Source: a virus. Taken from it: 33,788 nucleotides of DNA. Numbering within the stretch: position 1 is the stretch's first letter; each line of letters starts with the position of its first letter. The notes below the pieces were generated by a model that saw only the letters and a program-made list of their open reading frames with translations, ran no database searches and was not told where the DNA came from. Made by a program: the position numbers and the translations under genes. This document shows, in pieces, positions 6,396-17,361 of this stretch. The DNA lies in IMG/VR virus record IMGVR_UViG_3300013102_000051, positions 1 through 33,788 of that record; one strand, written 5' to 3'.

Positions 6396-6765
6396 CGCCG
6401 AAGCTCCCTGGTGTCGTCCACGTGTCGGTGCTGGTGGGTGTCTGTGCGGGTGCGGACTGTGCAGGCGGCTGTGACCGGATCGCTGTCACACCGTCAACCC
6501 ACACGAGGATGTCGTAGTACTTCTTGCCCTCATGTTCGCGTTCGACGGTTTCTTCACGTCCGAAGAAGGCGATGCGGTCGCGTTCCTGGAACTGTGACCA
6601 GTCGATGTTCTTGCCGCGGAGCGTGCGGAACGTGCGACCGGTCGTGTCGAAGCCGCCGTTGTCGTTCTTGCGCGAGTGGGGTTCGGAGGTTTTGACTCCC
6701 CATGCGCCGTCGTTGCCCGTGAGCACCTTGTCGACGAACGCGGACTTAACCTGTACATCAGCCAT
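6379..6765 (-). CDS. ssb: single-stranded DNA-binding protein
   Basis: 128 residues with an SSB-type OB-fold pattern: VKSAFVDKVL, GRTFRTLRGKNI, DRIAFFGREE and YYDILVWVDGV strands. A Pro/Gln/Thr-rich linker leads to an acidic tip ending DDTPF, the type of C-terminal tail by which SSBs recruit replication and repair partners. It would coat single strands during phage replication and recombination. Start ATG 6765 follows AAGGAG and overlaps the redoxin gene by eight bases. Confidence 0.85.
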   Translation of the reverse strand: MADVQVKSAFVDKVLTGNDGAWGVKTSEPHSRKNDNGGFDTTGRTFRTLRGKNIDWSQFQERDRIAFFGREETVEREHEGKKYYDILVWVDGVTAIRSQPPAQSAPAQTPTSTDTWTTPGSFGDDTPF

Positions 6766-13629: not shown

Positions 13630-13796
13630 CGCACACCTCCGTGCGGGTACTTGCCCGTCAACTGCAGTACGTCCAACGCAGTCAGGTCATCCGGGTTCGG
13701 GTCGGGTGTTGCGTGAATGTACTCGAGCACCAACCAGGCGACACTGGCTGCGAACGCGAGGATCAACGCCGGCAGAACCGGAAGCGAATCGATCAT
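13626..13796 (-). CDS. single-pass membrane protein (56 aa)
   Basis: A hydrophobic stretch (PVLPALILAFAASVAWLVL) near the start is followed by a polar tail with DPNPDDLTALDVLQL. GAGGAG precedes ATG 13796. Second gene of the early operon after cro; possibly a membrane-acting early protein. Confidence 0.7.
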   Translation of the reverse strand: MIDSLPVLPALILAFAASVAWLVLEYIHATPDPNPDDLTALDVLQLTGKYPHGGVR

Positions 13797-14128
13797 GATG
13801 CTCTCCTCGACCGTGAGCGGGAGGGTTGAGCCCATGCATCCTGAGGTGGGGTAATCCGCGCTACCTCAGGGGTGGAGGTTGTAACACCGAATCTCTTGCC
13901 GAGTGCGGCAGATTCGATGAGGTCGTAGGCGGTGATGCCGAGGAGTTCGGCTGCTCTGTCGAGCTCGTCGGCAGTGAACGGTGTGTGACCGTTGAGGCGA
14001 CCGGCGACGGTGGGCCTGCTGAGGCCCAGTGCGCCGGCGAGATCCGCGGGCTTCAAACCCTGTCTTCCCAGCTCTGCTCTCACCGCTGAGGCGACTGAGG
14101 TAGAGAAGGTGTCTGTATTTGCTGGCAT
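13793..14128 (-). CDS. Cro/C1-type HTH regulator (Cro-like)
   Basis: 111 residues. The Xre-family HTH is clear: VRAELGRQGLKPADLAGALG, LSRPTVAGRLNGHTPFTADELDRAAELLGI. It is the first gene of the leftward early operon and divergent from the repressor, the usual place of Cro. Its start coincides with the predicted transcription start of a TTGACA promoter (minus strand, 14163-14158; -10 GAACAT, 14140-14135), suggesting a leaderless mRNA. Two operator-like sites lie over the promoter and start. Confidence 0.85.
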   Translation of the reverse strand: MPANTDTFSTSVASAVRAELGRQGLKPADLAGALGLSRPTVAGRLNGHTPFTADELDRAAELLGITAYDLIESAALGKRFGVTTSTPEVARITPPQDAWAQPSRSRSRRAS

Positions 14129-14207
14129 GTCTCCATGTTCGTCCGCATTTGCTTACATGTCAAGCACATCCTCGAAGTTGTCAGCAAATACAGCTACTGT
14201 TGGAGGA
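14113..14207. promoter_or_regulatory. divergent cro/repressor promoters with three operators
   Basis: Three related sites: 14113-14131 (CTGTATTTGCTGGCATGTC), 14143-14161 (30 bp on), and 14179-14193 in the opposite orientation (CTGTATTTGCTGACA when reversed). The leftward promoter has TTGACA and GAACAT boxes at 17-bp spacing; its start would fall on the cro ATG. Rightward, TACTGT (14195-14200) would place a start near the repressor ATG at 14207; its -35 is weak. Binding by the repressor and Cro is inferred. Confidence 0.65.
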
Positions 14208-14617
14208 TGGACACAACACCCGTGCGGCGTCGGAAGCCGTCTGTGCAAGTGAACGAGCACTCAGGGTTCGCCCTGGAACTGGCCACGTATCTGCGTGCCG
14301 AGTTGAAGGATCGGGCGCTCAGTGGACGCCAGTTCGCGGATCTTGCTGCTGCTGGTACGCATGATCATTGGGCGAAGATCATCGCGAGGACGAAGGTGAT
14401 GACGACGAACGATGTGAAGGTTGCGGCGGACGTGCTGGGCATGGACCCTTACACCTTCGTAGCGAACTCGAAAACCCTCGCCGCCCCCCAGAATATCGGT
14501 GGTAAGTTCCAGGAAGAAGATGTGCTAGACCCGAAGCGCGAAGAGCTGCTGCGAAGTGATGTCGACTTGGCGGCACTGCGTGGACGCAACGATGCGGAGG
14601 TCGACCACGTCGACTAG
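14207..14617 (+). CDS. immunity repressor (HTH)
   Basis: 136 residues. The N-terminal half is an Xre-like HTH: ALELATYLRAEL, LSGRQFADLAAAGTHDHWAK, then VMTTNDVKVAADVLGMDPY. The C-terminal tail is acidic and has no LexA-type peptidase motif, so RecA-assisted self-cleavage is not expected. GGAGG sits directly against ATG 14207, too close to act normally; a leaderless start fits better. It is followed 11 bases later by an ImmA-type metalloprotease, a pairing known from ICEBs1 and phi105-type systems where the protease destroys the repressor. Confidence 0.8.
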   Translation: MDTTPVRRRKPSVQVNEHSGFALELATYLRAELKDRALSGRQFADLAAAGTHDHWAKIIARTKVMTTNDVKVAADVLGMDPYTFVANSKTLAAPQNIGGKFQEEDVLDPKREELLRSDVDLAALRGRNDAEVDHVD

Positions 14618-15072: not shown

Positions 15073-15116
15073 GCGCGCCTACATCCGTGGGTCAAATTCC
15101 TTGATTCTGCGGTAAA

Positions 15117-15131
15117 CTGTATTTGCAGACA
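15117..15131 (+). promoter_or_regulatory. operator-like site 4
   Basis: CTGTATTTGCAGACA matches site 3 in the cro/repressor region at 14 of 15 positions. It lies 45 bases after the metalloprotease gene and beside the tRNA-like element, away from a clear promoter, as expected for a stoperator-type site. Confidence 0.6.
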
Positions 15132-15140
15132 CACCACACG

Positions 15141-15229
15141 GTGAGTAGGTAAAACCCGCGTGATTCCGCGGCAAAACAGGCATTCAAGGGGTTCCGGCGT
15201 AACCGGTTCGAGTCCCGTTACTCACCCCA
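15141..15229 (+). other. tRNA-like element (possible attP core, degenerate)
   Basis: GTGAGTA (15141-15147) and TACTCAC (15219-15225) pair perfectly as a 7-bp acceptor stem, followed by C and a CCA. A T-arm reads ACCGG, loop TTCGAGT, CCCGT, with one mismatch. No normal D-arm or 7-base anticodon loop can be drawn; the middle has only a CCGCG/CGCGG hairpin with a 6-base loop. The 86-base length is class II-like. Probably a tRNA relic or attP core rather than a working tRNA. Confidence 0.45.
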
Positions 15230-15244
15230 GTAAGGAGTAGGGCT

Positions 15245-15581: not shown

Positions 15582-15748
15582 GCGACATCGTGATGACCAA
15601 GGTGAAGATGCACGACGGCACTTTCGCGTACCTACTTCCGAACGGAACACTCGTGACGGTTGAAGCCTGGGATAGCATCGACGCGGCATCGCGACGAATG
15701 ATAGTTGAAGCGGACGTCAACAAGAACGCCGATCCAAACGATGGCTAG
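15578..15748 (+). CDS. small hypothetical protein upstream of int (56 aa)
   Basis: MSDIVMTKVKMHDGTFAYLL, then GTLVTVEAWDSIDAASRR: a beta hairpin followed by a helix. Starts by ATGA overlap with the preceding gene and ends with an eight-base overlap into the integrase. Could act with Int, by position only. Confidence 0.65.
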   Translation: MSDIVMTKVKMHDGTFAYLLPNGTLVTVEAWDSIDAASRRMIVEADVNKNADPNDG

Positions 15749-16967
15749 TGTCACTCCCCGCGCTCTCGCTTCCGGTGAGGTTCGTTGGCGCGTCCAGGGG
15801 CGACACCAAGGCAAGATGCAGCAAGAAACGTTCCTGCACGAGAAGGGTGCCCGAGACTTCGGGGCACTCGTTGATCGTGTGGGATGGGAGGCTGCTCGAG
15901 CTGTCCGGGATTCGCGCAGCACAAACGCAACCGCGGCACCGACGCTCCGTGACTACACCGCCCGCTACCTATCCCCCGAGAGCGGCCTACTGACGGGTAT
16001 CGAGAAGGGCACGCGGGAGGGTTACGCAGCTGAGGCTGAACGATCCTGGTTGAAGTTGCTTGGCGATATCCCCGTTGACCTGATCACGAAACCTGATATT
16101 GGTGCGTGGCTTGCATGGCAGGAACAGCAACCTGTGTGGCGCGACAGGAACAAATCGAAGTCGGAACAGAAAGCCGTATCCGCCAAGACGGTGAAGAACT
16201 ATCACGCCCTGTTGTCCGCTGTGCTGGGCTCGGCGGTCGATGAGGGCTTCCGGCGAGACAACCCAGCGTTCAAAATGCGTATCACTCGTGGGGTGAAACG
16301 CGAGAACGTGTTCCTGACGCCGGCAGAGTTCGACACCCTCATGCACTTCATCCCCGAACGCTACCGACGCATGATCCTGTTCCTCGTTGGTACGGGCCTC
16401 AGGTGGGGTGAGATGAGCGCGTTGACGTGGGCTGACGTGAACATGCACGGCGCACCACCCACAGTGCGCGTGACGCGTGCATGGAAGAAAGCTAAGGGTG
16501 CGCCGATCCTCAGCTACCCGAAGTCTTCCAAGTCGCGGCGTTCAGTGTCCCTCTTCCCCGACCTCATCGCGATCATGGGCGAACCGGGGCTGTCCGACGA
16601 GTGGGTGTTCCCTGCGCCTCAGGGCGGGCACATGTGGCATGGGGCGTTCTACACGCGCATCTGGCGCACTGCCGTCGTCAAAGCGTCTGACAGTGCCGCG
16701 TGCCGAGCTGTAGGACTTGAGCCGCTGCGTCGTCAGCCGACTGTGCACGACCTGAGGCACACTCATGCGTCTTGGTTGATCGCTCGAGGCATCCCGCTTC
16801 CCTACATTCAGGCGCGTATGGGGCACGAGTCGATCACCACCACGGTCGGCGTGTACGGGCACCTTGTTGCTGATGCTCACGACCAGATGGCGTCTGCTAT
16901 CGCCCTCACCCTCTCGGGCGGCCAATCCCCCATCTCGACCACTCGACACGCCGAATTGGAAAATTGA
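15741..16967 (+). CDS. int: tyrosine-family phage integrase
   Basis: 408 residues. An arm-binding-like N-terminus (ASGEVRWRVQGRHQGK), a SAM-like core-binding domain (about 65-180) and a catalytic domain with R221 (TGLRWGE), K261 or K264 (SYPKSSKSRR), H336-x2-R339 (HDLRHTH), H362 (GHESI) and Y372 (VYGHL). The set is complete, so it should integrate and excise the phage at a tRNA-type att site. Start ATG 15741 overlaps the upstream gene; the earlier in-frame start is less likely. Confidence 0.95.
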   Translation: MASVTPRALASGEVRWRVQGRHQGKMQQETFLHEKGARDFGALVDRVGWEAARAVRDSRSTNATAAPTLRDYTARYLSPESGLLTGIEKGTREGYAAEAERSWLKLLGDIPVDLITKPDIGAWLAWQEQQPVWRDRNKSKSEQKAVSAKTVKNYHALLSAVLGSAVDEGFRRDNPAFKMRITRGVKRENVFLTPAEFDTLMHFIPERYRRMILFLVGTGLRWGEMSALTWADVNMHGAPPTVRVTRAWKKAKGAPILSYPKSSKSRRSVSLFPDLIAIMGEPGLSDEWVFPAPQGGHMWHGAFYTRIWRTAVVKASDSAACRAVGLEPLRRQPTVHDLRHTHASWLIARGIPLPYIQARMGHESITTTVGVYGHLVADAHDQMASAIALTLSGGQSPISTTRHAELEN

Positions 16968-16968
16968 C

Positions 16969-16998
16969 TTGACATGTCAGTAAATACTGACGCATAAT
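16969..16998 (+). promoter_or_regulatory. strong promoter with operator between its boxes
   Basis: TTGACA (16969-16974), 18-bp spacer, CATAAT (16993-16998), starting two bases after the int stop. The spacer holds TGTCAGTAAATACTG (16975-16989), matching the cro/repressor operator at 13 of 15 positions and containing a perfect TCAGTAAATACTGA palindrome. A bound repressor would block RNA polymerase. The start point would fall at about 17005, on an ATG. Confidence 0.7.
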
Positions 16999-17004
16999 CG
17001 GTAC

Positions 17005-17133
17005 ATGATGAACAACCACCACTCGGGCCGGCGGGTCGTGATGCCAGCCAGAAGATGCTTAGGGGTCAATGGTGACCCCGCCAACGGCAAGATGCAGCAA
17101 GACCACGAACGCAGAAGAACCCCCGCCCGGTGA
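17005..17133 (+). CDS. possible leaderless 42-aa protein
   Basis: ATGATG at 17005 lies where transcription from the upstream promoter should start, with no ribosome-binding site. The product is basic: MMNNHHSGRRVVMPARRCLG, then VNGDPANGKMQQDHERRRTP. Its last codons form the 5' arm of the terminator. It might instead be only the body of a small RNA. Unknown function. Confidence 0.4.
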   Translation: MMNNHHSGRRVVMPARRCLGVNGDPANGKMQQDHERRRTPAR

Positions 17134-17145
17134 AGGGCGGGGGTT
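17118..17145 (+). terminator. strong 11-bp hairpin terminator
   Basis: AACCCCCGCCC (17118-17128), loop GGTGAA, GGGCGGGGGTT (17135-17145). The following bases (CTGTGGTTTC) are only partly U-rich, but the stem is very stable. Ends the short transcript from 16969. Confidence 0.65.
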
Positions 17146-17158
17146 CTGTGGTTTCTGG

Positions 17159-17219
17159 TGTGGCTCAACTCACAACTGAAAATCGTGAGGTCACGGGATC
17201 GACGCCCGTCGGAGCCACT
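17159..17219 (+). other. tRNA(Phe)-like 3' portion, main attP core candidate
   Basis: Anticodon loop CTGAAAA (GAA at 17178-17180), 3' anticodon strand TCGTG, a perfect T-stem ACGGG/CCCGT with loop ATCGACG, and a 3' acceptor strand CGGAGCC plus A. GTGGCTCAACT upstream looks like positions 8-20, but the D-arm is shortened and the 5' acceptor strand is missing, so it is not a whole tRNA gene. A tRNA 3' end next to int is the classic attP core, which rebuilds the host gene on integration. Confidence 0.6.
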
Positions 17220-17300: not shown

Positions 17301-17336
17301 CATCGTGAGAATCGCCACCACACGACCAGAAGAGCT

Positions 17337-17361
17337 AGCTGTCTAGGGGGACTAGACAGCT
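17337..17361. repeat. 10-bp perfect inverted repeat
   Basis: AGCTGTCTAG (17337-17346) and CTAGACAGCT (17352-17361) around GGGGA. It sits in the gap between the att region and the 17393 gene. Could be an operator or hairpin; no U-run follows. Confidence 0.6.

Follow-up and report, generated by a model that had tools for sequence, protein, structure and literature searches.

The DNA analysed here (the window), virus record IMGVR_UViG_3300013102_000051, is 33,788 bp long, and its nearest relatives are Microbacterium phages and prophages. Directly downstream of its tyrosine integrase gene (int; 15741–16967, plus strand, PF00589 domain match) and on the same strand lies a short element made up of a promoter, a micro-open reading frame (micro-ORF), a hairpin and a terminator-like structure. 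The promoter is of the sigma-70 type (16969–16998), begins one base after the int stop codon and consists of a −35 box TTGACA (16969–16974), an 18-bp spacer (16975–16992) filled by the operator GTCAGTAAATACTGAC (16976–16991, plus strand) and a −10 box CATAAT (16993–16998). It scores 11 of 12 positions and is the sole promoter-like site within 5 kb; both boxes and their position are kept in eight relatives. The ATG at 17005, followed by a second ATG at 17008, lies 7 nt past the −10 box, at the predicted transcription start, and opens a putatively leaderless micro-ORF of 42 codons in the window (17005–17133), whose frame is kept and whose conserved part is MNNHHSGRRVVMPARR. It carries the tandem rare codons AGA AGA (17050–17055), invariant and in frame, and six nucleotides further on the hairpin P2, GGGGTC-AATGGT-GACCCC (17062–17079); these coordinates mark the 6-bp core of what in the window is a perfect hairpin, GGGGTCA-ATGG-TGACCCC. 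Next comes the conserved GCCAACGGCA (17080–17089), predicted partner of the ORF segment GGCCGG in a pairing termed P1. An intrinsic-terminator-like hairpin (17116–17147), kept in the relatives of group 1 (the group that includes the window), closes the element; the micro-ORF stop at 17133 falls within its stem, and in the window no gene lies between P2 and the terminator.

An earlier note on this DNA had described a near-consensus promoter just past the int stop, a 42-codon ORF and a perfect hairpin midway, all of which were recovered, and its leaderless start at ATGATG agrees with the predicted layout. The short terminated transcript that it proposed also appears sound, but its terminator stem of 11 bp does not, since 13 pairs were found.

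Conservation of the micro-ORF and hairpin

The block from promoter to terminator (16969–17147) lies directly 3′ of int in the eight relatives, namely the Microbacterium phage Footloose (L002), which has a laboratory strain as host, five viral contigs, and prophages of M. oxydans and of one other genome; their int genes show 69–86% nucleotide identity. Within group 1 the element, from ATG to GGCA, has a mean pairwise identity of 85%, against 77% for int DNA. More distant copies were found by three routes: BLAST in 366 Microbacterium genomes, pattern scans and a covariance model. The resulting comparison set holds 36 core sequences from separate contigs or genomes, some of them near-identical; the large genome searches used stricter filters, and weak members may have escaped. 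All 36 copies follow a common design, in which a micro-ORF ending in AGA AGA is followed by 6 nt, a 6-bp hairpin and almost always GCCAACGGC. The conservation of hairpin or peptide in related phages, which the earlier note had offered as a check, was found for both the peptide frame and the hairpin, and the finding therefore withstands the outcome named there as fatal, that neither be conserved.

The same note knew of no described counterpart. This holds for annotation, in that none of the 36 copies is annotated and no counterpart was found in Rfam, NCBIfam, PHROGs or the Footloose record; many unannotated counterparts do exist. At both thresholds used, Rfam 15 gave no family over the element, just chance low scores, its sole real match being a tRNA at 17142–17217, and among cultured phages and plasmids similar DNA or peptide was seen in Footloose only. 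The R1 search returned no second copy in the window or the relatives scanned, and within the genomes searched true matches were confined to Microbacterium. A host-wide or repeated element was rejected on these grounds; matches of 25–31 bits are chance (one lies inside an apparent methionyl-tRNA synthetase gene). L070 and L103 matched the patterns by chance, the latter being AT-rich and mostly unpaired. About 90 nt downstream of the first element, L069 (6161, minus strand), L098 (310, plus strand) and L062 carry another small ORF with AGA AGA, 6 nt and a different hairpin (GCCGC...GCGGC). Judged on these comparisons, the device, which some 35 further phages and prophages carry at integrase genes or attachment sites, is real and conserved and apparently undescribed.

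The reading frame is tightly constrained. Every copy open to the test has its AGA codons in frame with a start further upstream. In nearly every leaderless copy whose ATG falls at the predicted start, 42, 45, 48, 51 or 54 nt separate it from AGA AGA, always in frame; the exception is L068, in which the start-site ATG is out of frame and the start would have to lie upstream. One scan did not demand AGAAGA, and all true matches with upstream sequence still had this motif precisely 6 nt ahead of the stem. AGA is rare: among the phage genes sampled it accounts for 2.5 of every 1000 codons, in the host for 2.6, and it is absent from the window int. In most group-2 copies, as well as in L057 (TGATGA), L099 and L101, a stop codon (TGA or TAA) comes immediately after AGA AGA or one codon later, while in the rest of group 1 the next codon is TGC or TCC and the frame reads on. 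The codons of the stem vary in the amino acid encoded (G, E, A or P on one side; P, L, R, W or C on the other) with the pairing kept. A selenocysteine TGA with a SECIS-like hairpin was rejected, as the position is also occupied by TAA, CAT, GCA or TCC. A second ORF from the ATG in AGAAG-ATG-A was likewise discarded, as in the window and L060 it reaches a stop about six codons on, and the other groups do not keep its frame.

Since some of the pattern scans demanded GGGG..CCCC or GCCAACGG, the invariance of those letters is in part a matter of ascertainment, and this applies to GCCAACGG within the conserved GCCAACGGCA. A fair test of the stem came from one scan in which the outer stem bases were left free. 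It gave seven new matches, six with perfectly paired but different stems (GAGGAC/GTCCTC; GCGGTC/GACCGC, twice; CCTGTC/GACAGG, twice; CCAGTC/GACTGG), the seventh being L103; the prophage copy L094 has yet another stem, GCAGAC/GTCTGC. Overall, 6 of 6 pairs form in all 36 copies despite wholly different stem sequences. Two-sided, compensatory changes occur at four of the six pairs, in 25 cells as compared to 7.7 in shuffles (none of 500 shuffles reached 25), these being counts over related sequences rather than independent events, with several distinct stems present.

In the predicted minimum-energy fold of the window transcript (z −2.9), the ORF segment GGCCGGCGGGU pairs with the 3′ arm of the hairpin and GCCAACGGC, and in the group-2 prediction the hairpin stays intact, enclosed by pairing between the ORF segment GGCCGGUGGCGG and CGCCAACGGC; P1 is predicted to compete or coexist with P2. 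When the ORF is held open, as by a ribosome, the predicted probability of P2 rises to 0.94–1.0 in all copies. The ORF pairing exceeds that of shuffled 5′ sequence in many copies, not all. A terminator/antiterminator switch was rejected because the 7-bp alternative pairing falls short of the 13-bp terminator in strength and is at odds with the group-2 terminators.

Operator sharing and the integration module

The operator in the promoter spacer recurs at the immunity region and the int operon. Its palindrome matches sites at 14111 (minus strand) and 14180 (plus strand), and more weakly, with two mismatches, one at 14141 (minus strand); these immunity operators (14111–14195) lie between a cro-like HTH_3 regulator gene (phrog_4583 by family match; 13793–14128, minus strand) and a putative repressor gene (14207–14617, plus strand), so designated by a weak helix-turn-helix match, its position and synteny. 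A further match (15115–15130, minus strand) lies 5′ of the attP/int operon. Footloose, L006 and L007 share this layout, with two or three operators in the immunity region, a pair ahead of int and one at the element, and in the L003 contig operator sites lie between repressor and cro. In L074 and L077 the element carries another operator, GCGGTAATTACCGC, and the identical sequence is present in each one's own repressor/cro gap. An operator common to the element and the repressor/cro region, as in a member of an immunity regulon, was therefore found in the window, L002, L006, L007 and the L003, L074 and L077 contigs. As judged by motif comparison, this recurrence is not chance, and since operator and immunity region change together, it strongly indicates control of the element by the phage repressor (or Cro), in line with the repressor control that the earlier note had read from the operator. 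We infer both the binder (repressor or Cro) and the state in which the promoter would be on.

The position of the element with respect to int varies. It lies directly 3′ of int in group 1, L067, L074, L076, L077, L094 and L098, and 5′ of int in L078, L079, L095, L097, L100, L102 and L104; in L073 an int-like ORF is as far as 446 nt away; other copies lie at an att-like edge with repeated TGTGGGCA, beside a convergent DUF3263 gene (PF11662). What follows the element also differs, morons and in-frame fusions included: group 1 has a terminator only, L067 and L071 have an ORF without known function, L079 has a cPPR-like gene plus int, and L078 and L100 have int. In L078, L079, L100 and L102 short ORFs run through the hairpin and end close to where the next gene or int begins, and L094 has an in-frame extension of the element ORF. 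The N-terminal leader MQDTNLGHRRAAAEDPIGGVTRRGAGDNGVPAST, common to L095/L096 and L097, is joined in frame to different C-terminal parts in int-linked genes, and one leader on different C-terminal domains suggests an exchange between leader and cargo. Given this varying downstream content, the element can be viewed as a portable leader of which the window holds the empty version.

A putative attP core in the window (15205–15240, plus strand) corresponds to a tRNA-His 3′ end, with 97% identity to the M. oxydans tRNA-His end beside the L008 prophage, and is present in relatives. It is further supported by the M. oxydans prophage, which adjoins an intact tRNA-His, and by the L003 contig, which ends at the core. 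This attP lies upstream of int, about 1.7 kb from the element; an attP adjoining the element was rejected, as the conserved att core is the tRNA-His end. Just past the terminator, a tRNA-Phe 3′ piece (17175–17218, 89% identity to the host tRNA-Phe) is found, among group-1 loci, only in the window, within a tRNA-like match from 17142 to about 17217 (34 bits by cmscan; no call by ARAGORN). The window is without DUF3263, and the tRNA-Phe piece stands where relatives have that gene; the piece may be what is left of an att site from a different phage.

Several further observations were made around these sites. The direct repeats TGTGGGCA just 5′ of the element promoter resemble integrase arm-type attP sites in L060–L062, L068–L073, L081, L090, L099 and L101. 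The DUF3263 gene (6450–6710, minus strand, in L002, and relatives) is weakly similar to the model of the mycobacterial nucleoid protein NapA and is convergent with the element in most phages. In the window, a 17-nt exact repeat, GGCAAGATGCAGCAAGA, occurs in the N-terminal coding region of int (15810–15826) and in the micro-ORF (17086–17102), the relatives having no copy of it at the element. At 17328–17361, a perfect inverted repeat of 10 bp, AGCTGTCTAG-GGGGA-CTAGACAGCT, comes after AGAAGA, and no obvious ORF accompanies it.

A candidate translation-coupled leader and its alternatives

The earlier note had left a choice between a peptide and a small RNA. That alternative is too simple, since micro-ORF and hairpin form a unit of fixed spacing that in other phages is the 5′ leader of a gene. 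The reading that we favour, tentatively and as somewhat less than an even chance, makes the element a leader RNA of phage integration modules that starts leaderless, is coupled to translation and is controlled by the phage repressor. An interaction between ribosomes and hairpin is implied by the constant arrangement of start, AGA AGA, six bases and hairpin. In a lysogen the repressor would hold the element promoter off. On infection or induction, 70S ribosomes would load at the 5′ AUG and slow or halt at AGA AGA, often with a stop codon next. Since a ribosome there would open the pairing between the ORF and GCCAACGGC and cover the 5′ arm of the hairpin, we propose that the fold of the RNA is set by how fast the ribosome moves or by charged tRNA-Arg(UCU). 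Where genes lie downstream, the fold would gate their expression; in the window the leader would be released as an RNA of about 145 nt, which may act in trans or be the leftover of an empty cargo slot. Any effect on integration or lysogeny is one that we infer, and the regulation of int, attP or the lysis/lysogeny choice that the earlier note had suggested is likewise a candidate role.

Such a leader recalls trp-type attenuators, and leaderless cysteine-rich upstream ORFs (uORFs) in mycobacteria have been proposed as leader-peptide attenuators (PMC4633059). Shared with these, if the micro-ORF is translated as predicted, are a short translated leader, a run of special codons before a hairpin and a leaderless actinobacterial start; the codon run is invariant and lies 6 nt before the stem. 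Mutually exclusive terminator and antiterminator structures before a regulated operon were not found in the window, where P1 and P2 form the competing pair and the terminator stands apart. The element differs further in its rare arginine codons AGA AGA, its fixed 6-nt spacing and its linkage to integrase, in the several copies without a regulated gene and in having no amino-acid biosynthetic target. Rare arginine codons and integrase also meet in phage lambda, where, as far as the work of Zahn and Landy (1996) is cited in PMC6456624, int translation is controlled by a rare arginine tRNA. By that account the lambda codons lie near the 5′ end of int, whereas the element has them in a micro-ORF of its own and the window int is free of AGA.

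Some evidence weighs against a translation-coupled leader. Group 1, including the window, keeps the element without a gene before the terminator, which a pure cis leader would not predict; the group-1 ORFs read on past AGA AGA, which makes a stop codon there non-essential; P1 pairing is not above that of shuffled 5′ sequence in L002, L060, L073 and L099; and starvation for AGA decoding has no known physiological signal here. The gene-less copies suit the main rival, a stand-alone small RNA whose hairpin and conserved flanks would act in trans on a phage or host target, the ORF being incidental or only protecting the RNA, which we consider unlikely. Phage small RNAs such as P4 CI RNA and lambda OOP lie at immunity or att regions, and the element resembles them as a short terminated transcript, by prediction, under phage control; it differs in its rare-codon micro-ORF, and no Rfam match was found. 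The identity of group-1 copies above that of int, the stem covariation and a second hairpin with a compensatory change in L002 (GAGAC/GTCTC to GACAC/GTGTC) are all consistent with a small RNA. However, the frame-keeping length changes, the stops after AGA AGA and the in-frame fusions argue that the element is built around translation. Another rival has a functional basic micropeptide (..SGRRVV..ARR or ..TTRPVAV..RR) as the product, with the hairpin as coding or termination context. The conserved frame and residues, and loop codons RAY GGN that vary at third positions in many copies as N/D-G coding would, speak for it. It is nevertheless improbable, as stem codons swap amino acids freely while pairing stays, N-terminal parts differ strongly between groups, and conservation extends to many third positions of the ORF.

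Three further explanations were weighed. A lambda bar-like minigene, in which AGA AGA and a stop sequester the rare tRNA-Arg(UCU) and slow AGA-containing messages, would account for the roughly 16 leaderless copies in which a TGA or TAA comes after the tandem AGA. It is very improbable: bar-type minigenes stop directly after the critical codon, but the ORFs of group 1 (the window's included), of L077 and of the Shine-Dalgarno-led copies continue beyond AGA AGA, AGA is absent from the window int, and the covarying hairpin is left unexplained. The lambda sib/tI retroregulator, a hairpin and terminator just 3′ of int whose hairpin is processed by RNase III and acts on int mRNA, offers another comparison, in which the element would be the 3′ end of int mRNA and control its decay. 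The element lies directly 3′ of int in group 1, L067, L074, L076, L077 and L098 and a terminator is present, but its own repressor-controlled promoter and operator separate it from int and the seven copies 5′ of int do not fit, leaving this quite unlikely. Finally, covariation in the sequences cannot by itself separate an RNA hairpin from a DNA palindrome, which would covary too, and a DNA-level site for a recombination or binding protein or for cargo exchange would suit the switch of cargo just 3′ of the motif and the constant nearness of int or att. The fixed frame and rare codons 5′ of the motif, the promoter and start codon at fixed positions, and stem sequences that change completely from phage to phage, as those of a sequence-specific binding site would not, make it hardly probable; placed inside a transcribed and translated unit, the hairpin is better viewed as RNA.

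Returning to the translation-coupled leader, it is possible, though on balance doubtful, that these copies represent an undescribed, integrase-linked class of RNA switch in actinobacterial phages, in which a pause at AGA, set by charged tRNA-Arg(UCU) or the state of translation, folds a hairpin that gates int- or att-proximal cargo, the element acting as a free small RNA where cargo is missing. Overall, the element points to a conserved regulatory module tied to phage integration that has gone unannotated, annotation pipelines missing it because its ORF is tiny and leaderless. If translation sensing proves true, host tRNA supply would be coupled to the lysogeny decision or to the expression of cargo genes.
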